A DNA stretch of 46,483 nucleotides, taken from positions 1 through 46,483 of the forward strand of contig JALFLB010000006.1 of the NCBI GenBank assembly GCA_022775045.1, in the 5' to 3' direction. This document shows positions 14,132 to 29,791 of this stretch, piece by piece (within the stretch, counting starts at the first letter, position 1; the number at the start of each line of letters is the position of its first letter). A program made the position numbers and the translations under genes. This DNA is from Agathobacter sp. GTDB lineage: Bacteria > Bacillota > Clostridia > Lachnospirales > Lachnospiraceae. The notes under the pieces were generated by a model, which was not told the origin of the DNA, did no database searches, and was given only the letters and a program-made list of their open reading frames with translations.

Positions 14132-14803
14132 ATGATACAAATTCTGATTGTGGAGGATGAGCATCCTATCTCGGATCTGATCAGGCTGAATCTAACGCGG
14201 GCAGGCTATAATTGTACTGCGGCATACGATGGATTAGAGGCTGCCGACATTTTAGAGGAGCAGAGATTTGATCTGGTTATCTTAGACATTATGCTGCCGA
14301 AGATAAACGGCTATGAGCTGATGGAATATATCAGGCCACTGTCAATCCCGGTTATTTTTCTGACGGCCAAAGGATCGTTGGACGACCGAATGAAGGGGCT
14401 GACATCCGGTGCGGAGGACTATATGGTAAAACCTTTTGAGGTCGTAGAACTATTGGCGCGTGTCAATATTGTGTTGCGCCGCTATCACAAAGCACAACAG
14501 CTGCTGAGGTTTGAAGATATTGTTGTGGATGCGGAAAACCAGACAGTGAAAAAGGCGGGGCAGGAAGTTGAACTTACGCCAAAGGAACTGGAACTGCTCG
14601 TGCTTTTGATACGCAATCAGAATATTACGCTTTTTCGTGAGAGAATTTACGAGGAAATCTGGGGAATGGAGTACTCGGTAGAATCCCGGACACTGGATCT
14701 GCATATTCAGCGGCTTCGAAAGAAGCTAGCTCTTGGGGAACAGTTAAAAACCGTTTTTAAAGTGGGATATAGACTAGAGGAGACAAATGAAGTTTCGGTA
14801 TAA
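14132..14803 (+). CDS. OmpR/PhoB-family response regulator
   Basis: A 223-residue two-component response regulator. The receiver domain (residues 1-115) has the acidic pair in ILIVEDEHP, phospho-acceptor Asp52 in LVILDIMLPKINGYE, the Thr/Lys pair in IFLTAKGS and EDYMVKPFE. The C-terminal winged helix (about 128-222) has LTPKELELLVLL and the recognition helix in SRTLDLHIQRLRKKL. The ATG at 14132 matches the family start and has AAAAGGGAG upstream; the frame upstream to 14078 is not homologous. Its end overlaps the sensor kinase gene by 17 bases. It is the predicted regulator of the export cluster to 27869 and of its own promoter. Confidence 0.93.
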   Translation: MIQILIVEDEHPISDLIRLNLTRAGYNCTAAYDGLEAADILEEQRFDLVILDIMLPKINGYELMEYIRPLSIPVIFLTAKGSLDDRMKGLTSGAEDYMVKPFEVVELLARVNIVLRRYHKAQQLLRFEDIVVDAENQTVKKAGQEVELTPKELELLVLLIRNQNITLFRERIYEEIWGMEYSVESRTLDLHIQRLRKKLALGEQLKTVFKVGYRLEETNEVSV

Positions 14804-16253
14804 AGTATTAATCATCAATCTTGTATTGCTTTCTATCAGCCTTGGGATTGTAGGGTATCTGATGATTCGTAAAAACTTTGAGCTCGTGCAGGACGCACAG
14901 ATGCGGAATGCCATCGTGGAGAACAATCTGGTGCAGTCATCCGTGGAGTATGAATTGCTTCAGGTGCTGAACAGCACGGGGAATCATATCAGGGAGGATC
15001 TCTCCGACATTGGAACAAAGGTGGCTGGCAGCATGCTGACCACCGATTCCTTTTTTTACATCAAATATGCGGACGATTATGCCTATTCCGGAGATGGAAA
15101 GGAAGCACAAATCAGTGAGACGTTGTTTGAGAATCTGGCTGTTGGAGGGAAAAATTTTGTTGTTGGTAGTTCGCAGGGACACCATTATATTTATGTCAGC
15201 TCTTGCAGCTGCGTTAATGAAAGATATCTCTATGTCATTACCAAATCTGATATCTCTGAGGCGTACAGTCTGATGAACAGACAGATTTCGTATTTTCGGT
15301 TGCTTATTACGATTGTCTTGATGGTTGCATCTGTAATCATGTATGTGATCAGCTGCTATCTTACCCGCCCACTGGAGACACTTAATTGTGTGACGGAGAA
15401 AATTGCGGGTGGATGCTACGACACCAGAGCCAATGTGAAAACGTGTGATGAAGTTGGACAGCTTGCAGGCAGCTTTAACCGCATGGCGGAAGCCGTTTCG
15501 GAGCATGTGAAGGAACTGCGGGACATAATTCATCGCAGAGACCAGTTTGTGGCTGACTTTACCCATGAAATCAAGACACCGATGACAACTATTATTGGAT
15601 ATGCGGACACGATGCGTTCCATGGAGCTTCCCCGCAAAGAGCAGATCATGTCCTTAAATTACATTTTTTCGGAGGGAAAACGTCTTGAGGCAATGTCGGA
15701 AAAACTGTTTGAACTGATTTACTTAAAGCAGCATGAGATTGAGCAGCAGCCAATTCATGTGGAAGATTTGGCAGGGGAAATTGAAAAAATTGTCTCCCCT
15801 GCTCTTCAGAAGAAAAAGATTACCTTGTCGGTGGAGGTGGAACCGGCGGTTATTTTCGGAAGCCGGGAGCTGCTGGTCACGGCGTTTGTCAACTTGGTGG
15901 ATAATGCGAGAAAGGCTTCGGTGGAGAAGTCCTCGATTGCACTTACCGGATGCATTGTGCTACGGGAGAATGAATCCGGGGAAAAAGTGCAGCAGTATGA
16001 ATTGTCAGTGACGGATCATGGAATTGGAATGATGAAAGAGGATGTCAGGCATATCTGTGACGAATTTTATATGGTGGACAAATCACGCTCTAGAAAGGAG
16101 GGCGGAGCTGGAATCGGGATGTCGCTTGTGGCTCTGATTTTGGATCGTCACGGAGCTGCACTTGGCATTGAAAGTGCACTGGGCGAGGGGACGCAGATGA
16201 AGGCGATTTTTTCAGGGGTGACGGAAGGAGCACACAGTGAAAAAAAGGAATAA
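14787..16253 (+). CDS. Membrane sensor histidine kinase with HAMP domain
   Basis: A 488-residue sensor kinase, cognate to the regulator encoded just upstream. One membrane segment (about 7-26), an extracellular sensor region of about 145 residues, a second membrane segment (about 172-193), a HAMP domain (CYLTRPLETLNCVTEKIAGG onward), the HisKA dimerisation helix with phospho-acceptor His260 in ADFTHEIKTPMTTIIGY, and a HATPase domain with N box LVNLVDNARKA, G1 VTDHGIGM and G2 KEGGAGIGMSL. The extracellular part includes two closely spaced cysteines (SSCSCVNERY) that could form a disulfide or bind a metal. AGAGGAG precedes the ATG; translation is coupled to the regulator. Its 3' end overlaps the next gene by 17 bases. 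Confidence 0.92.
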   Translation: MKFRYKVLIINLVLLSISLGIVGYLMIRKNFELVQDAQMRNAIVENNLVQSSVEYELLQVLNSTGNHIREDLSDIGTKVAGSMLTTDSFFYIKYADDYAYSGDGKEAQISETLFENLAVGGKNFVVGSSQGHHYIYVSSCSCVNERYLYVITKSDISEAYSLMNRQISYFRLLITIVLMVASVIMYVISCYLTRPLETLNCVTEKIAGGCYDTRANVKTCDEVGQLAGSFNRMAEAVSEHVKELRDIIHRRDQFVADFTHEIKTPMTTIIGYADTMRSMELPRKEQIMSLNYIFSEGKRLEAMSEKLFELIYLKQHEIEQQPIHVEDLAGEIEKIVSPALQKKKITLSVEVEPAVIFGSRELLVTAFVNLVDNARKASVEKSSIALTGCIVLRENESGEKVQQYELSVTDHGIGMMKEDVRHICDEFYMVDKSRSRKEGGAGIGMSLVALILDRHGAALGIESALGEGTQMKAIFSGVTEGAHSEKKE

Positions 16254-17028
16254 ATACAGCAAAAAGAATATTAGAGACGGAATGCTTGTATGTGGAACAA
16301 TTGTAATTGTGGCGCTGGGGATTTTTGCACCGGGGAGGATACTTACAATTCAAAGCGAATCTGCCTCGTATGAGGTTATGGCAGTGCCAGAACAGTATTA
16401 TTCTTCATATAGCTCCGCGATGGCGCGCAATGCTTCTACCCATCTTGGGGTTCAAGATAAAATTCAGCTCATCTCAGGGGAATGGGAAAGTGAGACGATG
16501 GAGGCTGCTGGATATGAGATGGAACTGGAGGATTATGAGGCAGTTGCGAAGGCACGGGAAGAAATTAAAAATTTGTATGATGCAGGACTTTATCCGGACA
16601 GTATTTCCACGGATTATGGAGATTGGTATAGCTGGCAGGCTAAACCACGAAAAGCGGTGGATGCAACCTTCCACACTTATGCCGCATATTACTGGGAGAT
16701 TGAGTTTAAGCGGTATGACGGACAAAAGCAGCATACTATATATCTTCTTGAAGATGGAACTGTATTTTTGGCAGAGGAATATGCACAGGAAATTTGTGAC
16801 ATCGATGAAATCGTGGAAATTGGGACTGTTCTTGCTGGGCAGGAGAAATTGACTGCGGCGGTACAAGATACGCAAAATTGTACCCTTGCAGAGATCTTGC
16901 CGTACTATGAGGGAAATCTGGCGGGGCTGCAGTGGAAATCTTTAACTCAAATAACTGCGGGAGAGGATATCTTTCTTGTATTGCAGGCATATACGGAGAA
17001 CCGGTATCTTTTGGCAATAGCGATGTGA
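16237..17028 (+). CDS. Membrane-anchored extracellular protein of unknown function
   Basis: A 263-residue protein with a short basic cytoplasmic N terminus (MKKRNKYSKKN), one hydrophobic anchor (about residues 15-36) and an acidic extracellular domain rich in Tyr and Glu. No lipobox and no recognisable catalytic motif. The start is GTG at 16237, 6 bases after AAGGAG, and overlaps the end of the kinase gene, so it is translated together with the two-component system; an accessory role in sensing or signal input is a reasonable guess from position. I do not recognise a family. Confidence 0.75.
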   Translation: MKKRNKYSKKNIRDGMLVCGTIVIVALGIFAPGRILTIQSESASYEVMAVPEQYYSSYSSAMARNASTHLGVQDKIQLISGEWESETMEAAGYEMELEDYEAVAKAREEIKNLYDAGLYPDSISTDYGDWYSWQAKPRKAVDATFHTYAAYYWEIEFKRYDGQKQHTIYLLEDGTVFLAEEYAQEICDIDEIVEIGTVLAGQEKLTAAVQDTQNCTLAEILPYYEGNLAGLQWKSLTQITAGEDIFLVLQAYTENRYLLAIAM

Positions 17029-17048
17029 AAGAAAAATAACGGCAGGCA

Positions 17049-17080
17049 GATACAAAATGTTTACAAGTGCTGGATACAAT
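17049..17080 (+). promoter_or_regulatory. GATACAA repeats and promoter before the first lipoprotein
   Basis: GATACAA (17049-17055), TTTACAA (17060-17066) and GATACAA (17073-17079) lie in a row; the first two are 11 bases apart and the last overlaps a possible TACAAT -10 (17075-17080). The units resemble the TTTAGATACA repeats at 14037-14057, suggesting the same response regulator acts here. No canonical -35 is present. Confidence 0.45.
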
Positions 17081-17106
17081 AGACTTATGAATAAGGAGGG
17101 GTTACC

Positions 17107-18519
17107 ATGAGAAAAAATATATGGACGAGCCTGTTTTTGACAGGGGCACTTGCTCTGGGTCTGCTGACCGGATGCAGCAATAAAAAAGTAATCTATGATA
17201 TTGATCATACGCAGTCAACACAAAGCGGAATGAAGTCGGACGGAGGTTTTGGACTTGCACAGTTTGCAGATGCCGAAACATGGAAGGAAAGCTGGAAAGC
17301 CACCAATGCTGCCGGAGATACTTATGATATCTCAATCTCTGCCGACATTTCTGTGCCGGAGGTGGACCAGATGTCTGTAGTGGAGGTCAAAGAAGCAGAG
17401 ATGGATGAGGCATTCAAAAAGCAGATCATAGAGGGACTGTTCCCGGAGGAGACGGTTTATAACAATGACGCAGACCACTGGCCGAAAGAGCGGGTACAGC
17501 AGCAGATTGAAAAGTTGGAAGAAGAACTGAAACAGATGAAACAGAATAAAGAGTCTTTTGATGAGGAGGATTACAATCAATCCATCAAGGCGCTTGATGA
17601 TGAGATCAAGAAATACACTGCGCAGCTTAGCAGTGCGCCTTCCGATTATCAGCCAGTTGAGGAGTACAGAGGCAGTTCATACCTGATAGAGCATGACGGT
17701 ATATTCTATAGAATTGAATTTGATGAGACAAATTATGGCGCTTTCTGCATGAAAACGGTTCATATGGAACCGGACGATTATCAAACTCTTTGTCCAGATG
17801 AACTAAAGGAGAAAGACTGGCATTGGTATGAGGGGGAGGAAAGCACGGAAGAAAACAAGTGCAGCCTGACGAAGCAGGAGGCACAGGCAGTGGCGGAGCG
17901 CGCCCTTTCTGCAATGAATCTGACGGATATGGTACTTGAAGAAACACTTCCACTCGTCTGGGGAGGAAACATCTCAGGAGATGATGGAATAGGGATTGAA
18001 AATGAGAAGGTGACAGATGGCTGGAAGTTCTCTTATGGAATGGGCATCGAGGGCGTTTCTTTCCGTCAATATGGAACAGAGAATGACTATAGGTTTGATG
18101 AATTCTATGAGAGTATGGCAAAAGGGGAAGACTACATGTATTCCATGAATTCTGGAATTGCACTGTCCATCATGGATGAGGGTGTTATCGGAATGGAGCT
18201 TTGCTGCCCAATTGAAATTACTTCTGTTACGAAGGATGTGGAACTTCTTTCGATGGAAAATATCCAGACTATCATGCGCAATGAACTGACGGAGCATATA
18301 GATCAGTATCCGTCTCTCGAGAGTGTCAATTACTATACAAACATGGAGTTAATCTATTTTCGGATCCGGGATGAGGAAAAGAAGGGCTATTACAGCTATG
18401 TTCCGGTGTGGCGGCTGTCGGTTCAGTTTGAAGATGAGGACGGCAATCAGCAGATGGAGCGTGCAGTGCTGGTCAATGCCATTGATGGAGGAGTCATTTA
18501 CCTGCAGGATGAATTCTAA
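17107..18519 (+). CDS. Large lipoprotein, first of a paralogous pair
   Basis: A 470-residue surface lipoprotein: signal peptide ending LLTGC (lipid on Cys23), then NKKVIYDIDHTQSTQS and an FADAETW box. Residues about 130-180 form a Lys/Glu/Gln-rich coiled coil (ERVQQQIEKLEEELKQMKQ). The C-terminal region carries YYSYVPVWRLSV and LVNAIDGGVIY, recalling the fold of PepSY/YcdB-like secreted proteins. It may belong to DUF6034, from memory only. The next gene encodes a paralogue of identical length. AAGGAGG precedes the ATG at 17107. It opens the export part of the cluster, and a role as an external receptor, chaperone or immunity factor for the exporter is conceivable but unproven. Confidence 0.8.
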   Translation: MRKNIWTSLFLTGALALGLLTGCSNKKVIYDIDHTQSTQSGMKSDGGFGLAQFADAETWKESWKATNAAGDTYDISISADISVPEVDQMSVVEVKEAEMDEAFKKQIIEGLFPEETVYNNDADHWPKERVQQQIEKLEEELKQMKQNKESFDEEDYNQSIKALDDEIKKYTAQLSSAPSDYQPVEEYRGSSYLIEHDGIFYRIEFDETNYGAFCMKTVHMEPDDYQTLCPDELKEKDWHWYEGEESTEENKCSLTKQEAQAVAERALSAMNLTDMVLEETLPLVWGGNISGDDGIGIENEKVTDGWKFSYGMGIEGVSFRQYGTENDYRFDEFYESMAKGEDYMYSMNSGIALSIMDEGVIGMELCCPIEITSVTKDVELLSMENIQTIMRNELTEHIDQYPSLESVNYYTNMELIYFRIRDEEKKGYYSYVPVWRLSVQFEDEDGNQQMERAVLVNAIDGGVIYLQDEF

Positions 18520-18657
18520 TAATCAGATGCAGCCAGACCAAATGTGTTTACTACACTTGGGGACATATAGAAAAGATTTTAAGCGCATATGGCCACCGAG
18601 AGATGCTCTCTGGGCGAATTAGGTGAAAAAGAATCAAGAACGAAGGGAGAAATTCGC

Positions 18658-20070
18658 ATGAAGAAAAGAATTGTGGCGGCACTTCTGTGCGTGTCCATAT
18701 TTCTGTTGACCGGATGCAGCAATAAAAAAATCAACTATGATATTGAAAACACACAGTCAACACAGAGCGAAAAACAGACAACGGGCGACTCCATGCTTGC
18801 GCAGTTTGCGGATGCTGAAACCTGGGAGGACAGCTTCGAGGCGGTGGGGGAATATACCACAACGAAGATTACGATTGATGCCCAAATTGAGGTGCCGGGC
18901 GTGCAGAGTATGTCTGTGATCGAGGTACAGGAACCAAAGGTTGACGCCGCCTATCGGGAGAAAATGGTAAAAGCTGTTTTCGGTGACAGCGAAATATACT
19001 TTTATGATGAGACCAATCTTCCGAAAGGACAGCTGCTGGAAAAAATTGCAGCATATCAGGAACAGCTGATTCAATTGCAGGAGCAGCAGGCGCAGGTGGG
19101 CGATGGACTGGTGGATAAAAATAAACGGGATTCCATCCAACAGCAGATGGATGAATGTCAGCGGCAGATTGATTCTCTGGAAAAGAGCTATGAAACGGCG
19201 CCGGAGGACTTTATTTCTGCAGATAATTATCAGTCGGATGTGTATCTGGCATACAAAGATGGAAACGGTTATGTCCTGCGATTCGAGAATGGCGACGAAG
19301 AAGGAATGCAAGGTGTGAGACGGACATTTTGCATCACTCTCTCGCCAGAAGAAAATCATGACCTTTGTCCGGAGGAAGTGAAAGATTCGCCGCAGATTTT
19401 TTACGCGGGTGCTGGAGACATCGGCGATGCGGATGATAATTCCTGCAGGATGAGCCGGGAGTCAGCTGAAAATCTCTCCCTTGGAATGCTGTCGGATTTG
19501 GGTTTTTCCAATCCGGTGCAGACAGATGCATGGGCGCTGGGATGGTTTGGCTATAATGAGGAGAACTCCGAGGAGGGGTTCTGCATCGATGGCTATCAAT
19601 TTGTGTATCAATTGGGAATTGACCAAATGCCGCTTGTGGATAATGGATTTTATTTCAGCAGTTTCCTTCCTAAGGACAGAGAAAACCCAGAAAAAACAGA
19701 ATATTCGGAGAACGCCCGGGCAGCAGTGTCGGTGACGGATGACGGAATTATCGGGATTGAGATCAGCAATCCGGTGGAGGTGACCAACCGGACGCCGGAC
19801 GTGGAACTGCTTCCATTGGAAAATGTAAAGGAAATTTTCAAAAATGAGCTGATGAACCATTTCTTTGACTATGACATTCACATTGACCAGACAATGCATT
19901 TTACAAAGCTGTCGCTGATCTACCTTCGGGTGGCGGCTGACAATGGAAATGGAACCTACAGCTATATTCCGGTCTGGCGGCTGTGCTATGAGGATGATGG
20001 CACCTACCGTAACACCCTTTTCCTGAATGCCATTGACGGAAGCATTGTCTATGGACCGAGTGCATATTGA
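18658..20070 (+). CDS. Large lipoprotein, second of a paralogous pair
   Basis: Also 470 residues and a clear paralogue of the product of 17107-18519. The shared blocks are TGCSNKK-x-x-YDI then TQSTQS after the lipid Cys (Cys20), LAQFADAETW, VP-x-V-x-SMSV-x-EV, a central coiled coil (KGQLLEKIAAYQEQLIQLQE), the GI-x-GIE-x-x-NPVE / GMELCCPIE equivalent, and the ending YSYIPVWRL plus LNAIDGSIVY. The middle part is diverged. The ATG at 18658 has AAGGGAG upstream; an in-frame ATG at 18589 lacks a signal peptide start. The 138-base gap before it has no convincing promoter, so it is probably co-transcribed. Function unknown. Confidence 0.8.
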   Translation: MKKRIVAALLCVSIFLLTGCSNKKINYDIENTQSTQSEKQTTGDSMLAQFADAETWEDSFEAVGEYTTTKITIDAQIEVPGVQSMSVIEVQEPKVDAAYREKMVKAVFGDSEIYFYDETNLPKGQLLEKIAAYQEQLIQLQEQQAQVGDGLVDKNKRDSIQQQMDECQRQIDSLEKSYETAPEDFISADNYQSDVYLAYKDGNGYVLRFENGDEEGMQGVRRTFCITLSPEENHDLCPEEVKDSPQIFYAGAGDIGDADDNSCRMSRESAENLSLGMLSDLGFSNPVQTDAWALGWFGYNEENSEEGFCIDGYQFVYQLGIDQMPLVDNGFYFSSFLPKDRENPEKTEYSENARAAVSVTDDGIIGIEISNPVEVTNRTPDVELLPLENVKEIFKNELMNHFFDYDIHIDQTMHFTKLSLIYLRVAADNGNGTYSYIPVWRLCYEDDGTYRNTLFLNAIDGSIVYGPSAY

Positions 20071-20101
20071 GGCACATTGTTCAAAAAAGGAGGAGGTTCA
20101 T

Positions 20102-21073
20102 ATGGAAAAGAGAAACGCGGCAGTTCTTCTATGCACTGTTATTCTCTTCTTCACCGGATGTACCGCGCAGAGTACGCAGGTTGTTATCATCGACCGTGAG
20201 CCCTATGAGAGGACCGGCTATCAGACCACCGAGGTGCAGAAAGGAGATTTGCAGCCAAAACTGGAATTGAAGCTGACAGCTGACGGATACGAGCAGATCA
20301 TCTATGATGCTACTAACACAAATCTGCAGCTGGACAAGGTCTATGTTTCCGTTGGGGATAAGGTGAAAAAGGGTGATCTGCTGGTGGCCTTCCGGTCGGA
20401 AAGCATCCAGAAAATCATGGACAGTTACAGCGAACAGGCGGATCAGAACCAGCTTCTGGTGGAACATTACACAAACCTGATGCGAATCGACAAAACCTTA
20501 GATTACAGCAGCGATATTAAAATGCTGAAGCAGGATATTGAGGTGGCAAAGCTGTACATTGCGGAAGCGAAGGAGAAACTGGAGGGCTATCAGATTGTTG
20601 CAAAGAGAGACGGTACGATCACGGAAATGAACGAGTTTCTGCAAAAAGGCATGTTTGTGCCGGGCAGAAAACAGATCACACAGGTCTGCGGCAGTGGCAA
20701 TTACACAGCGAACAAGCCCGACAATTATGTGATTTCCGTGGGGGAAGTCTACCAGGCGACAGTGGGAGTTGCATCCTACGAGCTGATGGTGAAAAAGATT
20801 ACAAAAAGTCAGGTCATCTTTGAACCCATTTCGGATATGTCAGCGGTGTCGGAGGATGATGAGCTGACCATGGTGATTACAAGAGAGACAATGAAAAATG
20901 TGGTCTATGTGGACGCCGCCGCGGTGCAGGAAGGCATTGACAGCTATTATGTCTATGTAGTGGATGAGGATGGCTACCGGGATGCGGTGGAAGTAAAACG
21001 CGGAGAGCGGGTGGATGACTATTATGTGATCAACGACGGTCTTTCGGGAGGGGAGAAGGTGACGTTGCATTGA
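20102..21073 (+). CDS. Lipoprotein membrane-fusion (HlyD/MacA-like) adaptor
   Basis: A 323-residue adaptor subunit for the ABC exporter encoded downstream. Signal peptide ending FFTGC (lipid on Cys20). The lipoyl/barrel-sandwich half-motif is visible in LDKVYVSVGDKVKKGDLLVAF (about residues 77-100), followed by a helical hairpin (about 105-165) and the second half YQIVAKRDGTITEMNEFLQKG; a beta-barrel and the C-terminal YYVYVVDEDGYRDAVEVKRG hairpin complete the RND/MacA-type layout. AAGGAGGAGG precedes the ATG at 20102. The stop (TGA) overlaps the TTG start of the next adaptor gene. In a Gram-positive such an adaptor probably caps the external face of the MacB-like permease. Confidence 0.85.
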   Translation: MEKRNAAVLLCTVILFFTGCTAQSTQVVIIDREPYERTGYQTTEVQKGDLQPKLELKLTADGYEQIIYDATNTNLQLDKVYVSVGDKVKKGDLLVAFRSESIQKIMDSYSEQADQNQLLVEHYTNLMRIDKTLDYSSDIKMLKQDIEVAKLYIAEAKEKLEGYQIVAKRDGTITEMNEFLQKGMFVPGRKQITQVCGSGNYTANKPDNYVISVGEVYQATVGVASYELMVKKITKSQVIFEPISDMSAVSEDDELTMVITRETMKNVVYVDAAAVQEGIDSYYVYVVDEDGYRDAVEVKRGERVDDYYVINDGLSGGEKVTLH

Positions 21074-23346
21074 GAAAAATATGGAAATCGACGACTGCTG
21101 CTCTCGTGTTTTCCCTTTTTCTGACCGGCTGTGGCAGCACAAACCAGCAGACCGTACCGGAATTGATGGAGCCGGTGGCCACGAATGCGGCGTACCGCCC
21201 GGTGGAATATGGGGATGTAGGGCAACTCACTGTTCTGGTTGGAACCGTTGTGCCCACAGATTACTGCCATTTCTTTGAAACCAGCGTGACGGTTTCCGAG
21301 ATTCTGGTGGAGGTGGGGGATAGGGTCAAAAAGGGGGATGTGCTGGCATATGCCGACACGGCTGCGGCGAAGGAGGAGTTGAAGGCGCTCCGTGGGGATC
21401 TCGAGAAAGAAAACAGTATCTATCAGATTAATTTTCAGATTTCCGACAGGAAAATCGCGCAGTTGAATTATGAGATTAAGAATCTTGTCAAGAATGACGC
21501 TGATACAGGAACTTCGGGAGAAACTGAAATTACAGAATCAGACAAGCCGTCCATAGACTCCGACACAGATGATATCCCGGAAAATGAAATCTCCGCAAAT
21601 CAGGAATCACCCGGTGCCGCCATAAAAGAGCTGAATTCACAGATTCAGATTCTCAAGGAGAATGCCCGCTACGACAAACTCCTGCATGAGTATCGCGTCG
21701 GCAAATTAAACGAATCCATCGCGGCAAAGGAAAAAATTGTGGAGGATGGGACAATCCGGGCGAAGCATGCCGGGCAGGTGACCTACACAAAAAATCTGGC
21801 GGCGGGACGGGAAGCAAGCGGCAATGAGAACATTGTGATTGTGTCAGACAAGAAGGAACGCTATATTGAGCTGAAAGATATGACCGTAAACAATTACACT
21901 GCATATGAGAACTGTGAAGTGAAATATATCAGCCGTGCCGGGAAAAAACTTCCTGTGAAGGAACTGTCTTATACCTCCGACGAACTGATTCTTGCGAAGG
22001 CCAACAACACATATCCGAACGTGCGCCTTTCCTGCCCAAAAGCGGGAAAGCTGACCTATGGAGAGAACTATCTGGTCTACTACCAGAAAGAGGATGTGCA
22101 GGATGTGCTTGTGGTGGGGAACGATTCTATCTATATGGAGGAGAACAGCACCTTTGTCTATGTGCAAAACGACAGCGGAGAAAAGGAGCGGCGCCAGGTG
22201 GTCCTCGGTGCGAAGGGCAGCAATTACACCGAGGTAAAACAGGGCCTCTCGGAGGGAGAACTGGTCTACTATGAGTCGAAGGAACGGATGCCGGTGGATT
22301 ACGGCACCTATACAGTTGCTTATTCGGATTTCGAGCGTCAAAACTATGCTTCTTCCTACGCCCGCTGTAGCACTGTGGGATTTCCGTACACCTCGGAGTA
22401 TGAGGGCACGGTCACAAAGGTTGTAGTGGAATCCAATCAGGAGGTACAAAAGGGCGACCTCTTATGCGTCATCGATACCGGCGAGGGAAAGGCTGCTTTG
22501 AAGGATGCGCAGAACCAGATTGAGCGGGAGAATTCCTCTTATCAGGAAACCATCAAAAGCTATGACGAACAGATTGCCGCCGCGGAAAACAAATACGAGA
22601 AAGAGATTCTGTCTCTGGAGAAAAAGCTTGCCGGAATCAACCATAATGACACACTGAGCCAGCTGCAGGAAATACTTGGATCCATTCAAAAGAATAATGA
22701 TGGAACCGGAAAGGTTTCCGTTTATGCAAAGTCAGATGGAATCGTAGGAAAAGTCACTGTGAGCGTCGAAAATCAGGTGGAAAAAGGGGATGAACTGATG
22801 ACCATCAGTGAAACCTCCGGCAATCTGATGCTCATGGAGATGAAAGCCGCCCCAAATGCAAAGAATTTTACGGACGACCTGGCAGATATCGGGGAAAAGC
22901 TCACCATGACTGTAGGCGGGAAGACCTATACCGGCACCTGTGTGGGAAATGCCGTGGATTTTGACAATGCCCGGAAAGTCTATCTGACTTCGGATAAAAA
23001 AGGGGCAAAGCTTTCCACCAGCAGTCAGTCCGGCTATTCTGATCCGGCATTTTTTGTGAAAATGGACGAGGAAGAATTTTATGAGGAAGTGCCGGCGGGG
23101 GGCAAGTTCTATTTTTCCTACGTGAATGTAAAGAAAGTATGCGCAATCCCAACATCCATGATCTACAAAGAGAGTCGTGTGGAAAGCGGCGGGAAAGAAT
23201 TTTTCTATGTGTGGCGCGTGGTGGACGGGAAACTGGTAAAGCAGTATATTCAGACGGATCCCCAGGGGAGTCTTGCCGATGACCGGATGACGGTTGTACT
23301 TTCCGGCCTGAACGCGGGGGATGTGATCGCTTCTGGTAATAAATAA
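21070..23346 (+). CDS. Tandem (duplicated) membrane-fusion adaptor lipoprotein
   Basis: A 758-residue protein, about twice the usual adaptor length. Signal peptide ends FLTGC (Cys21). It contains two adaptor modules: module one has a lipoyl half-motif at about 70-95 (ILVEVGDRVKKGDVLAYAD), a helical hairpin with an acidic Ser/Thr/Asp insert, and the returning half near 228 (IRAKHAGQVTYTKNL). Module two repeats this at about 440-475 (TVTKVVVESNQEVQKGDLLCVID), a coiled coil (NQIERENSSYQETIKSYDEQ) and a returning half near 550 (VYAKSDGIVGKVTVSVENQV). The C terminus has the typical YVWRVVDGKLVKQYIQT hairpin. Translation must start at TTG 21070 (no ATG keeps the signal peptide), overlapping the previous stop; GGAGGGGAG lies upstream. 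Confidence 0.8.
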   Translation: MRKIWKSTTAALVFSLFLTGCGSTNQQTVPELMEPVATNAAYRPVEYGDVGQLTVLVGTVVPTDYCHFFETSVTVSEILVEVGDRVKKGDVLAYADTAAAKEELKALRGDLEKENSIYQINFQISDRKIAQLNYEIKNLVKNDADTGTSGETEITESDKPSIDSDTDDIPENEISANQESPGAAIKELNSQIQILKENARYDKLLHEYRVGKLNESIAAKEKIVEDGTIRAKHAGQVTYTKNLAAGREASGNENIVIVSDKKERYIELKDMTVNNYTAYENCEVKYISRAGKKLPVKELSYTSDELILAKANNTYPNVRLSCPKAGKLTYGENYLVYYQKEDVQDVLVVGNDSIYMEENSTFVYVQNDSGEKERRQVVLGAKGSNYTEVKQGLSEGELVYYESKERMPVDYGTYTVAYSDFERQNYASSYARCSTVGFPYTSEYEGTVTKVVVESNQEVQKGDLLCVIDTGEGKAALKDAQNQIERENSSYQETIKSYDEQIAAAENKYEKEILSLEKKLAGINHNDTLSQLQEILGSIQKNNDGTGKVSVYAKSDGIVGKVTVSVENQVEKGDELMTISETSGNLMLMEMKAAPNAKNFTDDLADIGEKLTMTVGGKTYTGTCVGNAVDFDNARKVYLTSDKKGAKLSTSSQSGYSDPAFFVKMDEEEFYEEVPAGGKFYFSYVNVKKVCAIPTSMIYKESRVESGGKEFFYVWRVVDGKLVKQYIQTDPQGSLADDRMTVVLSGLNAGDVIASGNK

Positions 23347-23373
23347 TGATTGGAAAAGACAGGAGGCAGCAGT

Positions 23374-26187
23374 TTGCTACAGTTTGTAATACATAAGATA
23401 AAAAATAAGAAATGGCTGAATCTTTGCCTTCTGGCGGGAATCACACTGCTGGCAGCAGTCTTCGCCTGCCACCCGATGTTTGCAGGCGGCGCGGACAATT
23501 GGCTGTTGCAGACCGGTTTTGCAGATTATGTGGCTGAAAAAGAGGAATTTCCGGCGGTATTTGCAAGAAGCGGAAGCTATGATACGAAGCAGTATAAAAA
23601 TGTGCAGACCATCTATGAGCGGCTGGACGCCTACGAGGCAAAATGGACGGAGTACGTGAATGTGGATCCGGTGGGGTCCCAGCAGTCCCTGAAATTATCC
23701 GGGGACAGCACGGAAAGCAGTCTGGGACGAGGCAATATCTATCTGAGTGTGGGGCTTCTGCGGGATATGGAGGACCACATACAGGTGGTAAAGGGCGAGG
23801 ATTATAACACTACCGAAAGTCATGGCGTCTTTTCCTGTCTGATCAGCGAGAGCGTTATGGACACTTACGGTTTGGTGGTGGGGGAGGAAGTGACATTTCC
23901 CTATTCCCTGAATAAAGAGGGAGAACCGGCGCGCTTCCGGATTGCGGGAATTATAAAGGAGGCCTCAACATCGGACAACTATTGGTATCATGACCTGACC
24001 TACTACGAAAAAGAAATCTTTGTGACTCAGGAAACCTTCGATACGCTGATTGCGGATTACGGCTTTGCCACCGTGCAGTTCGAGGACAATCTTCTGTTGA
24101 ATTATACCCAGATCAATGGGAAAAATGCCATGGATTACCTTTCTTATATCCAGGAATTTCAGCAGGCGGACAAAGCATTTTCCACGAATCTGGTTGCATT
24201 GCTGAAAAGCTTCGCCACCCAGCGCCAGACTGTGCGCACCATTCTCTGGGTGCTGGAGCTGCCCTGCATCGTGCTTCTGCTGTTGTTCATTTACATGGTG
24301 TCCAATCAGGTGCTGGGGACGGAGGAGGGGGAAATTGCCTCCCTTCGAAGCCGCGGCGTGACAAGGGGGCAGACCATGTTTTTGTATATCCTGCAGTCGC
24401 TGCTGCTCTCTCTTGCCGGTATGCTCTTCGGCACGGCCATGGGCTTTGGAATGTGCAAAGGTGCGGTTTCAACGGATGGATTTTTGCACTTTGTGAAAAA
24501 GGATGTAAGTCTGTATACCTTCACGCCGTTGATGCTTTTATACGCCCTGGCGGCCTGCGCCATTGCGATGCTTTTTATGACAATCCCGGTGTGGAAACGG
24601 GCACGCCTGACCATCGTGGAGCAAAAAAGCGGGAATAGTCAGATCGACAGGAAACCTTTCTGGGAAAAATGTTTTCTGGATGTAATCCTGCTTTGTATTT
24701 CCTGCTATCTTCTCTACAACTACAGGAAGCAGACCACAGAGCTGTCCCTGAGGGTGATCGGAGGTGAGAATCTGGATCCGATGATTTTTCTGAATGCTTC
24801 GCTGTTTATCTTTTCCTGCGGACTATTATTTCTGCGTCTGATTCGGTATCTGGTACTGCTCATTGACAGGATTGGAAAGAAACGCTGGAAACCAGCAATG
24901 TACGCATCCTTCCTGCAGATTACGAGAACCTTTCACAGGCAGAGTTTTATCTCCGTTTTTCTGATTATGACCATCGCCAGCGGCATTTTTAACGCAAATA
25001 TGGCGCGGACCATGAACCGCAACAACGATGAGCGGATAACCTACAACATCGGCACGGATGTCCGGCTTTTGGAAAAATGGAAGCTACACATTTACTGGAC
25101 CGATGATGGAACGGTCTGGTATTATGATGAGCCAGATTTTGGGCGCTATGACACACTGGTGGAGCAGGGAATCTGTGACAGAGTCACCCGGGTGATCGAG
25201 GACAATCGGGTGGATGTCAGCGCCGGCGGCAAAATTTTCTCCACGTGTCACCTGATGGGAATTTCCACAAAGGAATTCGGGGAGACTGCACGGCTGAAGG
25301 AGGGGCTCAACGATACCCACTGGTTCAACGCGCTGAATGCTCTTGCAGGGGATGCAAATAGCGTGATCATATCACAGAATCTGGCTGAGGAGGCGAGCCT
25401 TAAGGTAGGGGATGCAATCACATACACCCGTTACAGTCCGCTGCAGCCCGATCAGGACATGGGCACGGTGTCGGCAACGGTGTGCGCCATCGTGGAGTGT
25501 TTTCCAGGCTATGAAAGGTACAATTATGTGACGGACGAAAATGGGAAAGTGACGGAGAAAGAAAACTATCTGGTTGTTGGAAATTATGCGGCCATTGCCA
25601 GTGACTTTAAAATGACACCCTACAGTATATGGATGAGATTCTCTGAAGGGGCGGTCACCGAGCAGGTGAAAAACTGGATTTCGGAGGAGAAAATCGCCCT
25701 GATTAGCTGGATCTCCATGGAAGAAAATCTTTCGAAGAGCAAAAACTCTGCGCTTATTCAGATTACCAACGGGCTGTTTACCATGACATTTTTTATTTCA
25801 ATCCTGATCTGTTCCGTGGGCTTTCTGATTTACTGGATTATGTCCATTCAGAGCCGGGAGCTGATGTTCGGCATCTATCGGGCAATGGGAATGCGGATGA
25901 AGGAAATCCGCAGGATGCTTGTCAATGAGCAGATTTTTGGTTCCCTGCTCCCGATTGCAGCAGGAGCCGGCATCGGAGCGCTTGGAACGAAATTATATGT
26001 GAAGCTTCTGACCCTTGTGTATCTTCCGAAGAAGCATAACATTCCAATCTGCATCTATATTGAGGCGACAGACTTTGCAAAATTGTTTGCTGTCATTGCT
26101 GCGGTGGTGTTTATCTGCTTCTTCGTACTGCGTAGGCTGTTGCGGAAGATGAAGATTGCCCAGGCACTGAAACTGGGAGAGGATTAA
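23374..26187 (+). CDS. FtsX/MacB-type ABC exporter permease
   Basis: A 937-residue membrane subunit. One N-terminal segment (about 14-33), a large extracellular domain (about 34-285), then several membrane segments in the first FtsX unit (about 290-430), two further segments, a second extracellular domain (about 560-780) and a C-terminal FtsX unit (ITNGLFTMTFFISILICSVG, the cytoplasmic IQSRELMFGIYRAMGMRMKEI coupling helix, then two more segments). This double-FtsX layout is that of LolCE/BceB-like exporters with two ectodomains. The TTG at 23374 is chosen because AGGAGG (23361-23366) is 7 bases upstream; TTG 23350 lacks a site. It probably works with the two ATPases and adaptors around it. 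Confidence 0.88.
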   Translation: MLQFVIHKIKNKKWLNLCLLAGITLLAAVFACHPMFAGGADNWLLQTGFADYVAEKEEFPAVFARSGSYDTKQYKNVQTIYERLDAYEAKWTEYVNVDPVGSQQSLKLSGDSTESSLGRGNIYLSVGLLRDMEDHIQVVKGEDYNTTESHGVFSCLISESVMDTYGLVVGEEVTFPYSLNKEGEPARFRIAGIIKEASTSDNYWYHDLTYYEKEIFVTQETFDTLIADYGFATVQFEDNLLLNYTQINGKNAMDYLSYIQEFQQADKAFSTNLVALLKSFATQRQTVRTILWVLELPCIVLLLLFIYMVSNQVLGTEEGEIASLRSRGVTRGQTMFLYILQSLLLSLAGMLFGTAMGFGMCKGAVSTDGFLHFVKKDVSLYTFTPLMLLYALAACAIAMLFMTIPVWKRARLTIVEQKSGNSQIDRKPFWEKCFLDVILLCISCYLLYNYRKQTTELSLRVIGGENLDPMIFLNASLFIFSCGLLFLRLIRYLVLLIDRIGKKRWKPAMYASFLQITRTFHRQSFISVFLIMTIASGIFNANMARTMNRNNDERITYNIGTDVRLLEKWKLHIYWTDDGTVWYYDEPDFGRYDTLVEQGICDRVTRVIEDNRVDVSAGGKIFSTCHLMGISTKEFGETARLKEGLNDTHWFNALNALAGDANSVIISQNLAEEASLKVGDAITYTRYSPLQPDQDMGTVSATVCAIVECFPGYERYNYVTDENGKVTEKENYLVVGNYAAIASDFKMTPYSIWMRFSEGAVTEQVKNWISEEKIALISWISMEENLSKSKNSALIQITNGLFTMTFFISILICSVGFLIYWIMSIQSRELMFGIYRAMGMRMKEIRRMLVNEQIFGSLLPIAAGAGIGALGTKLYVKLLTLVYLPKKHNIPICIYIEATDFAKLFAVIAAVVFICFFVLRRLLRKMKIAQALKLGED

Positions 26188-26235
26188 AGAAGTGCTTTAA
26201 CTGCTGAAATATATCGAATTGGAGGAAAGTGAAAA

Positions 26236-26910
26236 ATGGCAGAGGTGTTAATACATACAAGTCATCTTGTCAAATGTTTCCCCACAGGGGACGGCAAAAC
26301 CTTCCGCGCCCTAAATGGAATCAATCTGGATATTCAAAAAGGCACCCTTACCATCCTTAAAGGGAGATCCGGCTCCGGTAAGACAACACTTTTGAATACG
26401 CTGAGTGCCCTGGACGAACCGACGGAGGGCGAGGTGGAATGCTTTGGGGAAAAGATTTCTGGTATGACGGAAGCTCAAAAAGAAAATCTGCGCCGCTACC
26501 GTATGGGGTTTGTCTTTCAGTCCATCGCGCTGGTGCCGGTAATGAGCGCCTACGAAAATATAGATTTTGCTCTGCGCCTGGCAGGTTACCCGGATAATCG
26601 GGATAATCGGATTCGCGAATGTTTGGAGAAGGTGGGGCTGTTGAAACGTATGAATCACATGGCTGGGCAACTCTCCGGTGGGGAACAGCAGCGTGTGGCA
26701 ATTGCCCGGGCGTTGTCCCACCGTCCCGACGTTATTTTCGCTGACGAACCCACTGGCGCATTGGATACCGCCTCAGGTCTGGTGGTCATGAAGCTTTTTC
26801 AGGAGCTCGTCCGCAACGAAGGAGTCACCATAGTCATGACTACCCACGATCCCAATCTGATGGATTTGGGGGACGCCGTCTTCGAGATTGCGGATGGGGC
26901 AATTGCCTAA
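26236..26910 (+). CDS. ABC exporter ATPase 1 (MacB/LolD type)
   Basis: A 224-residue ABC ATPase of the MacB/LolD/BceA class. Walker [10 protein letters not shown] (about residue 42), Q-loop [18 protein letters not shown], signature [15 protein letters not shown] and Walker [13 protein letters not shown] are complete, as is the H-loop in [20 protein letters not shown] precedes the ATG. It lies 48 bases after the permease gene and 29 before a second ATPase gene; the two could form a heterodimer on the two halves of the single large permease. Confidence 0.92.
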
Positions 26911-26939
26911 GAGGGAATATATGCGAAGGGAGACACAAC

Positions 26940-27869
26940 ATGGAACAGATACAGGAAGAGATTCCGTCCGATGCACTCATTTACTGTGACGGTCTGGTTA
27001 AAATATATATGTCTGACAATCTGAAGGTCATGGCTCTGCAGGGTCTCGATCTCACAATTAAACGAGGCGAGATAGTAGCAATCATCGGCAAGTCGGGTAG
27101 CGGGAAATCAACCCTGCTGAATATGATCGGGGGACTGGAAACTCCCACTGCGGGGCGTCTGTGCGTGGATGGACGTAATCTGTCCAGTCTGAAAGAGAAG
27201 GATATGGTACAGTACCGGAAAAGCAAGGTTGGCTTTGTCTGGCAGAAGAGCGTCCGCAACTTGTTTCCATATATGACAGCGGTGGAGAATGTGGAGACAC
27301 CCATGTGTTTCGTAAAGGGAAATGACAGCAGGAAAGCCAGAAGGGCAAAGGCACTGGAACTTCTGGAGGAAGTGGGCGTGAAAGATCACGCAGATAAGTT
27401 TCCAGATCAACTGTCCGGAGGTGAGCAACAGCGTGTGGCGATTGCGGTGGCACTTGCCAACAGTCCGTCCGTTCTTCTGGCAGACGAGCCAACAGGTGCG
27501 GTGGATACCCAGACCTCTGATATGATTTTCCGGTTGTTTCAAAAGCTGAATCGGGATCTGGGACTGACCATTCTTATAGTGACGCATGATGTTGCGCTTT
27601 CCCAAAAAGTAAGTCGAGTTGTCATGATTTCCGATGGAAAAATCAGTACAGAAAAAATTAGAAAAGAATCCGATTCAAATGATATGACGGAGCGCTTTTC
27701 CTTTCGGGAAACACACGAGGAATATTCGGTTCTTGATAAGGCACGCAGGGTACAGCTCAGCGAGGAAATGCTCGAACAGGCAGGCATCCATTCCAATAAA
27801 GTAAAGATTGAAATGATTGGCGATAAGATTGTTATTACAAAACCGATTTCCGTTGAAACACTCCAATAA
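26940..27869 (+). CDS. ABC exporter ATPase 2 with C-terminal extension
   Basis: A 309-residue ABC ATPase. Walker A GKSGSGKST, a divergent Q-loop FVWQKSVRNLFPYMTAVENV, signature [16 protein letters not shown] and Walker B VLLADEPTGAVD are intact; the H-loop is VTHDVALS. Unlike its neighbour it continues for about 75 residues beyond the catalytic domain (from about 235: RKESDSNDMTERFSFRETHE through AGIHSNKVKIEMIGDKIVITKP). The last stretch looks like a small beta-rich regulatory domain of unknown role. GGGAG precedes the ATG. It is the last gene of the cluster. Confidence 0.9.
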   Translation: MEQIQEEIPSDALIYCDGLVKIYMSDNLKVMALQGLDLTIKRGEIVAIIGKSGSGKSTLLNMIGGLETPTAGRLCVDGRNLSSLKEKDMVQYRKSKVGFVWQKSVRNLFPYMTAVENVETPMCFVKGNDSRKARRAKALELLEEVGVKDHADKFPDQLSGGEQQRVAIAVALANSPSVLLADEPTGAVDTQTSDMIFRLFQKLNRDLGLTILIVTHDVALSQKVSRVVMISDGKISTEKIRKESDSNDMTERFSFRETHEEYSVLDKARRVQLSEEMLEQAGIHSNKVKIEMIGDKIVITKPISVETLQ

Positions 27870-27934: not shown

Positions 27935-29791
27935 ATGAAGAAGATTGCATTAATTTCAGACGGATGGCGCCGCCTGATTACCTATGAATGGGTGAACGGA
28001 ATCATGAAGCGAATCCGGGAATTAAATTTGGATGCAGTTTTGTATCAATATAATTCCTATGGCAACTGGAGCAAAGATGCAATGTACAACGTGGGGGAGT
28101 ATAATATTTATAATCTGCTGGATTTGTCATCGTTTGATGGGATTATATTAGATTGCAGCAATATAAAAGAGGATAAGATCAGGGAGTCGATTATTCAGAG
28201 ACTGAGAGAGAGCAAAGTGCCGGTTGTTACCATTGATTATGATGTGGACGGATTTTACTATGTCGGTAGTGACAATTACAGTCCGATTCGTGAGATGGTA
28301 CACCATCTTTATGAGGTGCATGGATGCCGCCGGTTTATCTTTGCCGGCGGACCGAAAAATGCCTCCGGAAACCGCCGCCGGGAGCAGGCATACCGGGAAG
28401 CTTTGGCGGAGCTGGGTCTTGATGAGAAGGAGAATCCTGCGTGGGATGGCGATTACGATTATGAAACCGGCGTCCGATATATGAAAGAAGTATGCGAACA
28501 CAATCTTCCACTTCCGGATGCATTTGTGTGTGCAAATGATAATATTGCAGCAGGCATGTGTGCGGAAGCGGAGAAACACGGCTATTTTGTGCCGAGGGAT
28601 TTTCTTGTGACGGGGTTTGATAATCTGGATAAGGCCGCTTATTTCCGTCCGCAGATTTCAACGGTATACCAGCACAGGGGTGATATCGGTGGAAAATGTG
28701 TAGATGTTCTTACCGACCTTTGGGAAGGAAAGCAGGTACCGGAGCATAATTATGTTCCCGTGGAGTGTATCTTTGGGGAGAGCTGTGGATGTCCCAACAG
28801 CGGTCAGGTAGATTATCGTGAGTGCGTTAGAAATCAGATTGTTCACAAGGTAAAAAAAGACGAAGAGGATATGCTTCTGGTCGAATTGGAAGCAGAAATG
28901 GCCGTACATAACCGCTTTGAGGATATTTTCAGGAGTATTGTGACATACTTTGAAAAGCTGGACTGCGATGGGGTGTATATCGTGGTGGACCGGAAGCTTT
29001 ACAATGGTGTTGTTGGTACGGTATTTCCGACTGAAGGCTATGACTGGGAAAATCTTGTTGTGGCAGATGGATTTGAGGATCATGAGCGGACAACCATTTG
29101 TGATCTGGATGAATTAAACCATCATATTGAGATGGTAGGAAGCGGAAACGTATATATGTATACGCCAATTCATTTCAGGGAGCAGGCAGTAGGATATATC
29201 ATATTGAAAAACGGTCGTTTTTTGTATGATAATCCCTATTATTATGATATTCACAGTTCCATTGTTACTCGTCTGGGAAACCAGTTTAAGCAGAACCAGC
29301 TGGAAAATGCAGTAAATAAGCTACAGGATCTGTATAATCGTGATCCGCTGACCGGTATTTACAATCGCATTGCTTATTCGGATATGATCCGTTCTTCATT
29401 TCTGGAATATAGCCGGCAGGGAATTGTATGTGCACTTGTTTTTGTGGATGCGGATGATTTTAAATCGATAAATGATAATTTCGGTCATGAATTTGGAGAC
29501 CGTGTATTGATTCGTATTGCATCGGTGCTGCAGGAGGAGTGCCCGAGAGATGGGTATGCCTGCCGTTATGGCGGAGATGAGTTTGTCACTTTCTTTCCAC
29601 ATGCGACACCTGCCAATGCAAAGGCGTATGTGCAGCGGGTACAGGAGAAGCTTGATCGAGAGCATATTTCTATCAGTATGGGAGTTCAGCTGACACACGC
29701 CGGAGTTGGTGAGACATTGGATGCCTATCTCTCTAAGGCGGATCAGAGTATGTATCGGCAGAAAGAGGAGCACAAGAAGAAAAAGGAATAA
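27935..29791 (+). CDS. Diguanylate cyclase with LacI-type sensor domain
   Basis: A 618-residue protein without signal peptide or membrane segment. Residues 1-280 form a periplasmic-binding-protein-like domain of the LacI/GalR effector type (KKIALISDGWRR, FVCANDNIAAGMCAEAE, VTGFDNLDKA), but without a helix-turn-helix. Residues about 320-440 look like a GAF-type domain, then a short linker helix and a GGDEF domain (DPLTGIYNR start, active-site GGDEF at 546-550). The catalytic motif is intact, so c-di-GMP synthesis is expected; the RxxD inhibitory site normally just before RYGGDEF is absent. Thus a soluble ligand, perhaps a sugar, may set c-di-GMP levels from within the cytoplasm. It starts a separate unit after the export cluster. 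Confidence 0.9.
   Translation: MKKIALISDGWRRLITYEWVNGIMKRIRELNLDAVLYQYNSYGNWSKDAMYNVGEYNIYNLLDLSSFDGIILDCSNIKEDKIRESIIQRLRESKVPVVTIDYDVDGFYYVGSDNYSPIREMVHHLYEVHGCRRFIFAGGPKNASGNRRREQAYREALAELGLDEKENPAWDGDYDYETGVRYMKEVCEHNLPLPDAFVCANDNIAAGMCAEAEKHGYFVPRDFLVTGFDNLDKAAYFRPQISTVYQHRGDIGGKCVDVLTDLWEGKQVPEHNYVPVECIFGESCGCPNSGQVDYRECVRNQIVHKVKKDEEDMLLVELEAEMAVHNRFEDIFRSIVTYFEKLDCDGVYIVVDRKLYNGVVGTVFPTEGYDWENLVVADGFEDHERTTICDLDELNHHIEMVGSGNVYMYTPIHFREQAVGYIILKNGRFLYDNPYYYDIHSSIVTRLGNQFKQNQLENAVNKLQDLYNRDPLTGIYNRIAYSDMIRSSFLEYSRQGIVCALVFVDADDFKSINDNFGHEFGDRVLIRIASVLQEECPRDGYACRYGGDEFVTFFPHATPANAKAYVQRVQEKLDREHISISMGVQLTHAGVGETLDAYLSKADQSMYRQKEEHKKKKE

Follow-up and report, generated by a model that had tools for sequence, protein, structure and literature searches.

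Two-component system, DUF6034 lipoproteins and a three-adaptor ABC exporter in one gene run of Agathobacter sp.

Which function could unite a two-component system (TCS), two lipoproteins of a family of unknown function, a set of membrane fusion proteins (adaptors) and an ATP-binding cassette (ABC) exporter in one run of genes? The question is raised by ten consecutive genes, all on the + strand, at 14132-27869 of an Agathobacter sp. contig. The whole analysed stretch of 46,483 nucleotides is called the window below; the host genome assembly has 2.45 Mb. An earlier interpretation made from the letters alone (the sequence-only reading) had described ten genes in one direction that include no peptide or biosynthetic gene. 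All ten indeed share one strand, and no cargo gene is among them. We consider the run to be a composite envelope-stress module, in which a sensor of envelope damage drives the export of an envelope-active compound, and assign a probability of about 50% to this reading. The exporter is a variant of the Type VII ABC family not seen before, and its three-adaptor pattern is our most surprising result. The genes are as follows.

14132..14803, +, response regulator (RR), OmpR/PhoB type (Pfam Response_reg and Trans_reg_C)
14787..16253, +, sensor histidine kinase (HK) (Pfam HAMP, HisKA and HATPase_c)
16237..17028, +, MemP, a single-pass membrane protein with an outer domain (one transmembrane (TM) helix, no Pfam match)
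17107..18519, +, Lip1, DUF6034 lipoprotein (PF19499, 66.8 bits; lipobox LTGC)
18658..20070, +, Lip2, DUF6034 lipoprotein (PF19499, 94.1 bits; lipobox LTGC)
20102..21073, +, adaptor unit 1 (membrane fusion protein), a lipoprotein (sub-threshold HlyD and RND_mfp matches; unit-1 clade)
21070..23346, +, adaptor units 2 and 3 fused into one lipoprotein (two lipoyl stretches and HlyD_3; unit-2 and unit-3 clades)
23350..26187, +, fused permease with two MacB/FtsX halves, two ectodomains and about 10 TM helices (Pfam; hydropathy)
26236..26910, +, ATPase 1, DevA/FtsE/LolD-like (ABC_tran; all catalytic motifs)
26940..27869, +, ATPase 2, LolD-like, with a C-terminal extension of about 60 residues (ABC_tran; all catalytic motifs)

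Adjacent genes overlap or are separated by less than 100 bases, except for about 140 bases between Lip1 and Lip2, and terminator-like matches are not more frequent than in shuffled sequences (12 vs. 11.3). Judged from this layout, it is plausible that the ten genes form one transcript. They are more than chance open reading frames, since their counterparts in other genomes retain 25-84% protein identity to the window genes. In this comparison, some pairs are partial, and ATPase 2 of locus L119 is excluded as the contig ends there. Identities are 71-84% for the RR (six relatives), 51-66% for the HK, 38-49% for MemP, 46-58% for adaptor 1, 37-46% for the double-length adaptor, and 57-74% for the ATPases. 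The DUF6034 lipoproteins are the most divergent part of the set (25-35% vs. 42-61% for the permease). Lipobox cysteines are visible in the translations of four proteins (LTGC, LTGC, FTGC and LTGC). In a separate check of four proteins, PADLOC returned no match.

The exporter core is recognisable, by its predicted domains, as a Type VII (MacB/YbbP-like) ABC system. The permease has 945 residues and matches FtsX (80.5 bits) and MacB_PCD (37.6 bits) above the Pfam cut-offs, each in two stretches. Its hydropathy peaks fit a 4+2+4 arrangement of TM helices in a crude topology prediction, which corresponds to the YbbP type with two MacB units per chain, two ectodomains and two linking TM helices. 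There is also a weak LolC match. Two features of Type VII systems are present, namely an FtsX-type TM domain with a MacB-like ectodomain and an ATPase of the Lol/MacB type with intact motifs; Walker A, signature, Walker B and H-loop are kept in both ATPases. The NCBIfam list is topped by DevA, FtsE and LolD for ATPase 1 and by LolD for ATPase 2, in the latter case below the equivalog cut-off; LolD and MacB are among the best solved-structure matches of ATPase 2. By eye, its C-terminal extension (27690-27869) resembles an AbrB-type swapped hairpin. In a MacAB pump, the ATPase is fused to the permease N-terminus and one kind of adaptor is present; here, the ATPases are separate genes and there are three adaptor lineages. 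BceAB has a single-ectodomain permease and no adaptor, and the run differs by its two ectodomains and three adaptor units.

The first adaptor has sub-threshold matches only (HlyD_D23 at 20.9 bits, cut-off 30; NCBIfam RND_mfp at 56.6, cut-off 94.9), and the double-length adaptor has two lipoyl matches and one to HlyD_3 above the Pfam cut-offs. Adaptor genes (more than 250 residues, at most 8 kb upstream of the permease) were counted in 49 exporter loci. Three units are either three genes, or one gene plus a fused gene of at least 640 residues; in L064, L065, L066 and L068, a middle gene of 648-694 residues is matched by the hidden Markov model (HMM) in two pieces around an insert and was counted as one unit. 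Three adaptor units precede the exporter in 40 of the 42 loci with at least 5 kb of upstream sequence, the exceptions being L090 and L096. Among the seven loci with less than 5 kb upstream, L082 also has three adaptors. The exporter loci include near-copies (L064/L066, L069/L074, L120/L121), so that these counts do not represent independent events.

The adaptor tree comprises 126 units, three each from the window and 41 loci, which are numbered by gene order; it results from a quick search and has several long branches. Units 1, 2 and 3 fall into three separate clades of 42 units (SH-aLRT 96, 97 and 96). The position labels need two changes on this tree, which is the minimum possible, as compared to a mean of 59.8 in 200 shuffles. 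Because the N-terminal half of the window's double-length adaptor belongs to clade 2 and its C-terminal half to clade 3, this protein is a fusion of adaptors 2 and 3. Fused adaptors are found in two separate groups, with 10 entries around the window in one and L078, L123, L124 and L125 in the other. Among 28 three-gene loci, a lipobox-like motif occurs in 22 for unit 1, in all 28 for unit 2 and in 23 for unit 3. Three adaptors are not universal, since a relative on a Paenibacillus plasmid (24% permease identity) has one annotated adaptor. Gram-positive MacA-like adaptors are described as hexamers (PMC5768738, PMC5985334), for the pneumococcal one with a 6:2:2 stoichiometry (PMC5768738). From these hexamers, we infer that the adaptor ring may have a 2+2+2 composition.

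The sequence-only reading had proposed an undescribed, TCS-linked export system with two adaptors that departs from the standard Bce, Mac and Lan arrangements. The last point is borne out. The two adaptor genes exist but, by counts and tree, amount to three adaptor units, and the permease core is of the known Type VII. No paper on three-adaptor systems with an FtsX-like permease was found in a literature phrase search, which other wording may escape.

Neighbours that recur in 37 exporter loci were inspected by eye, and none resembles a cargo or biosynthetic gene; a recurring 703-residue protein of L091 has no Pfam match. In five f5 loci (L091-L095), a protein of about 734 residues precedes the adaptors (the one scanned, from L091, has no Pfam match), and in four of them the two ATPase genes sit ahead of it. 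Many f8 exporter loci (L064-L077) are located just past genes which by eye resemble dnaX, ybaB and recR. This suggests a stable chromosomal site.

What does the sensor respond to? The HK has two TM helices and an outer loop of about 146 residues, followed by the cytoplasmic-type domains listed above. MemP has 37 database matches, the top one (99%) probably being the window's own, and no match was obtained in a PDB sequence search. In a survey of 250 family genomes, 191 had a kinase match at E 1e-26. We opened 30 kinase loci, each being the best match of its genome among many; one is the window, and L249 is masked downstream. A MemP-type single-pass gene directly follows the HK in the 28 readable loci of the 29 opened besides the window. 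For 21 outlying loci (L271-L291), the MemP label comes from an HMM built on these same loci, and the independent evidence is a profile comparison: MemP with its near relatives matches the outlying set at 98.1% in hhalign, while five column shuffles reach at most 0.2%. As judged from these loci and profiles, RR, HK and MemP are a sensor trio of the Lachnospiraceae. MemP is not YycI-like (hhalign 0.3-0.4%), and its 29% match to full-length DUF6034 is confined to 33 columns of the signal region at the N-terminus and is not taken as homology.

The relatives of the sensor point to the cell wall. In 17 of the 21 outlying loci, a peptidoglycan hydrolase gene is next on the same strand (VanY in 9, Amidase_3 in 6, Amidase_2 and NlpC/P60 in one each); L283 has a second MemP-like gene between the MemP-type gene and the hydrolase. 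A hydrolase is not shown next in L272, L282, L286 and L291 (the next genes of L272 and L291 are unscanned, and L272 has SpoIIP two genes on). We know of no name for this wall-linked RR-HK-MemP-like two-component family. The kinase tree contains 63 kinases; L097, L121 and three low-score background kinases were left out. The 47 kinases from MemP- or DUF6034-linked loci (the window and 46 others) form one clade with SH-aLRT 99, within which the MemP-type kinases group (support 86). The remaining 16 kinases, of which the window's own genome contributes 12, are placed outside. An exclusive clade of DUF6034-linked kinases (19 vs. 19 background kinases, L097 being left out as a near-copy) proved too strong a claim; it was dropped because a larger sample includes closer kinases whose visible 1.5 kb of neighbouring DNA has no DUF6034.

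The fold assignments for DUF6034, as for MemP, rest on profile comparison. The DUF6034 family profile was built from 39 sequences, that of YycI from 26 of 30 loci, the four weakest being left out. The C-terminal half of DUF6034 matches YycI at 97.6% in hhalign (P 4.7e-12, 148 columns); the whole family scores 97.0% and the last 95 residues 88.6%. Controls stayed at or below 1.7% (eight column shuffles) and 1.9% (five unrelated profiles). The C-terminal half thus appears homologous to the outer domain of YycI, whose N-terminal TM anchor is replaced by a lipobox in DUF6034. Pfam hints on single members (n=39) are YPEB_PepSY and DUF4901 (two each) and YycI (one), with several unrelated families seen as often. 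The window's own genome has no YycI match. In S. aureus, YycH and YycI are described as stimulating WalK (PMC7355866). When compared to PDB sequences, the DUF6034 profile found mainly coiled-coil or helical look-alikes over its central region (best E 0.0018), which were not accepted. In Lip2 (18658-20070), the N-terminal half of DUF6034 contains an insert (residues ~117-181) that looks helical and coiled-coil-like, with weak matches to coiled-coil structures. A phrase search of the literature, from which differently worded papers may escape, found none naming DUF6034.

DUF6034 genes vary in number, with nine copies in L162, six in L264, and 3, 2 or 1 elsewhere. The nine of L162 (G313:C73, 1660-13263) are in tandem, flanked by MemP and adaptor 1. 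A tree of 32 DUF6034 lipoproteins groups many copies by genome; in it, those of L162 fall into two groups of that genome, and two copies are very close. In ten other loci, DUF6034 directly follows RR-HK, and in seven of these (L098, L099, L163, L164, L168, L169 and L170, but not L100, L167 and L172) the next genes encode two multi-TM proteins and an ATPase. This second exporter type is labelled ABC-2-like by ourselves; one of six permease proteins tested has a weak ABC-2 hit in Pfam. An identity as LanFEG was considered and rejected, the six permease proteins, from three loci, having no NCBIfam match at E 0.01. Beyond the ATPase, a CARDB protein is encoded in L099 and a protein with a weak NPCBM_assoc match in L098.

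Does the full set travel together? Among 62 genomes of the genus, the permease is present in 11, DUF6034 in 9 and MemP in 7. The seven MemP genomes are exactly the seven with a permease identity of at least 43%, and all seven have DUF6034; in G313, the run is split over two contigs. Four genus genomes with a permease at 32-35% have neither MemP nor DUF6034, and G296 and G304 have DUF6034 alone (below the family cut-off in G304). The order RR-HK-MemP-Lip(n)-adaptor-double adaptor-permease-ATPase-ATPase is found in L112, L113 and L118. L119, L120 and L121 show a different order, in which the RR lies amid the lipoproteins or MemP is preceded by adaptor 1; L115 and L162 run into contig ends and are incomplete. 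L113 and L117 are the same record, and L120 and L121 are near-copies. A scan of genome contigs yielded five loci, including L116, which is devoid of any gene of the set.

Among 295 genomes of the order, the permease occurs in 39 and DUF6034 in 11, and both are found only in the window and in G008. Of the 38 other genomes with the permease, 37 lack a DUF6034 match, and one, G008, has DUF6034 on a different contig. Seven nearer kinase loci (L264-L270) mix the modules: L264 has DUF6034 genes and adaptors, at which the sequence retrieved stops; L267 has the exporter but no DUF6034; in L268 and L270, DUF6034 is accompanied by multi-TM proteins and an ATPase; L269 has two MemP and two DUF6034 genes; L265 and L266 each have a divergent DUF6034 gene. 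The full set is thus a clade-specific assembly of modules, as it coincides in 7 of 62 genus genomes, and elsewhere the modules occur apart.

Put to a neighbourhood survey, as the sequence-only reading had proposed, the full set travels together within the clade, in these same seven genomes, and mostly not elsewhere. The label of a lipoprotein-rich export system captured the TCS-linked exporter but merged modules that are mostly found apart. Four separate lipoproteins are indeed encoded in the run, but lipoprotein number is variable (0 in L267 to 9 in L162). Nor do the lipoproteins belong to this exporter alone, as DUF6034 also follows related kinases beside a different exporter.

How might the composite envelope-stress module work? 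The trio of RR, HK and MemP, from a cell-wall-linked Lachnospiraceae family, would be the core of sensing. The YycI-like DUF6034 lipoproteins would most likely be the parts that encounter the external ligand or the damage, and would adjust the kinase accordingly. Once phosphorylated, the RR might then raise expression of the run, including that of its own gene and of the ABC exporter. The latter would combine one MacB/YbbP-like permease, fused into a single chain, with two LolD-type ATPases that differ from each other and with a tube of three different adaptors, most simply a hexamer with two copies of each. It would lift an amphipathic envelope-active compound from the outer face of the membrane into the tube and away; an antimicrobial peptide, an antibiotic or a lipid-linked wall intermediate are candidate cargoes. 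The substrates of known members of the exporter superfamily are peptides, antibiotics or lipids located at the membrane. Because of this superfamily, the wall-enzyme neighbours and the wall-kinase accessory domain in the lipoproteins, we consider the most likely function to be a sensing of envelope attack or wall damage that is modulated by MemP and DUF6034 and coupled to export of the harmful compound.

Several points weigh against this reading, which rests on sequence comparison. The HK has no PAS domain in its Pfam list and scores 154 bits against a WalK cut-off of 725 in NCBIfam. The hydrolase neighbours are those of outlying members of the kinase family, not of the window clade, and the 17 of 21 is a raw count. 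MemP is not universal, as ten clade kinases lie directly before DUF6034 without a MemP match. The YycI match is limited to the C-terminal half of DUF6034 (N-terminal half 1.6%), the anchor differs, and YpeB, a PepSY protein at greater distance, reaches 63.7% as well. In L061 (41% permease identity) and L114 (40%), the exporter comes with a double-length adaptor, and the DNA seen includes no TCS; in the ~8 kb and ~3.7 kb, respectively, before the first adaptor, phmmer found no match to TCS, MemP or lipoprotein. L267 has TCS, MemP and exporter without DUF6034, and the lipoproteins are thus not essential to the exporter.

A more far-reaching version of the reading is put forward tentatively, and we would not bet on it. 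In this version, the run represents a new class of MacB-like exporter. Its adaptor tube would of necessity be a heterohexamer, built from three adaptors that diverged long ago and of which two became fused, in two separate lineages; it would be matched to one fused, asymmetric permease and to two ATPases that are not identical. The WalRK-like kinase wired to this exporter would have its specificity set by fast-evolving, tandem-amplified YycI-like lipoproteins, acting as interchangeable outside ligand detectors for two exporter types.

Other functions can be assigned to the same genes. The lipoproteins may be shields rather than kinase partners: lipoproteins such as NisI and SpaI hold off lantibiotics at the membrane, and DUF6034 proteins could likewise bind antimicrobial peptides there, which the exporter then expels. 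Such an immunity device would account for proteins that are lipid-anchored, the most divergent of the set and present in 0-9 copies, and the order seen in seven of the ten other DUF6034 loci resembles the known order of RR, HK, immunity lipoprotein and exporter. We nevertheless regard it as rather unlikely, given that the C-terminal half resembles a kinase-accessory domain, that the kinases beside both exporter types share one clade, and that none of the six permease proteins matches an NCBIfam model.

Less defensive roles start from the Lol-like traits of the exporter. Lipids, lipoproteins or wall precursors might be extracted for envelope upkeep, as by LolCDE or YbbAP-TesA, in line with the LolD-like ATPases, the YbbP-like fused permease, the hydrolase-linked sensor family and the lack, by eye, of a recurring cargo-like neighbour in the exporter loci. 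For YbbAP-TesA, extraction of hydrophobic molecules from the membrane has been proposed (PMC12646458). Upkeep seems to us improbable, since a scattered distribution (39 of 295 order genomes), lipoproteins that diverge and a TCS of its own suggest that the system meets a changing challenge from outside. In another view, Lol-like action might release the DUF6034 lipoproteins from the membrane, which would make them the cargo; this could be argued from the ATPases, from the weak LolC match of the permease and from the fact that these lipoproteins are the nearest secreted products. It is hard to reconcile with the near-complete lack of DUF6034 in the other permease genomes of the order, with its absence from L267 and with its presence beside another exporter, and we give it little credence.

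A further gene on the same strand (27935-29791) begins about 65 bases past ATPase 2 and by eye encodes a LacI-like sensor domain and GGDEF. Right after ATPase 2 in L112, L113, L118, L120 and L121, phmmer found no match.

For bacteria that lack an outer membrane, a conserved three-adaptor ABC exporter would raise the question why one tube needs three different walls, and the natural fused and unfused adaptor versions provide ready comparisons. DUF6034 is placed beside YycI and near related kinases with two exporter types, which allows a test of the way in which WalRK-like sensors read the cell wall. The run also offers a starting point for work on envelope stress in gut Lachnospiraceae.

Among known systems, Spr0693-0694-0695 of S. 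pneumoniae and YknWXYZ of Bacillus are similar in having an adaptor, a MacB-type permease and a separate ATPase in the absence of an outer membrane, with an adaptor described as hexameric (PMC5768738, PMC5985334). They have one adaptor, and the pneumococcal pump has two copies each of permease and ATPase, whereas in the window the adaptors belong to three lineages, the permease is a single fused protein, there are two ATPases, and a TCS and DUF6034 lipoproteins are part of the same run. TriABC-OpmH of P. aeruginosa also has more than one adaptor gene per pump operon, triABC being described with two (PMC8277102), but is a Gram-negative pump of the RND type; the window encodes an ABC exporter with three adaptor units and no outer membrane.

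BceRS-BceAB resembles the run in that a TCS is found beside an FtsX-type ABC exporter. BceAB is not known to have adaptors, nor are Bce-type kinases known to have the large outer domain of the window kinase. BceB is described with one ectodomain (PMC5985334), as compared to two ectodomains and three adaptors in the window. WalRK-YycHI is alike in its order of RR, HK and outer membrane-anchored accessory genes, in the YycI homology of DUF6034 and in the hydrolase neighbours of the outlying relatives. It differs in that the window kinase has no PAS domain and stays far under the WalK cut-off, in that MemP is not YycI-like, and in that DUF6034 is lipid-anchored and an exporter is attached. YbbAP-TesA has one ATPase gene, no known adaptor and the hydrolase TesA as a partner, while the window has two ATPases and three adaptors instead. 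With its two fused MacB units, two ectodomains and two linking TM helices, this Type VII ABC system of E. coli, as described in PMC5985334, has the permease architecture predicted for the window.

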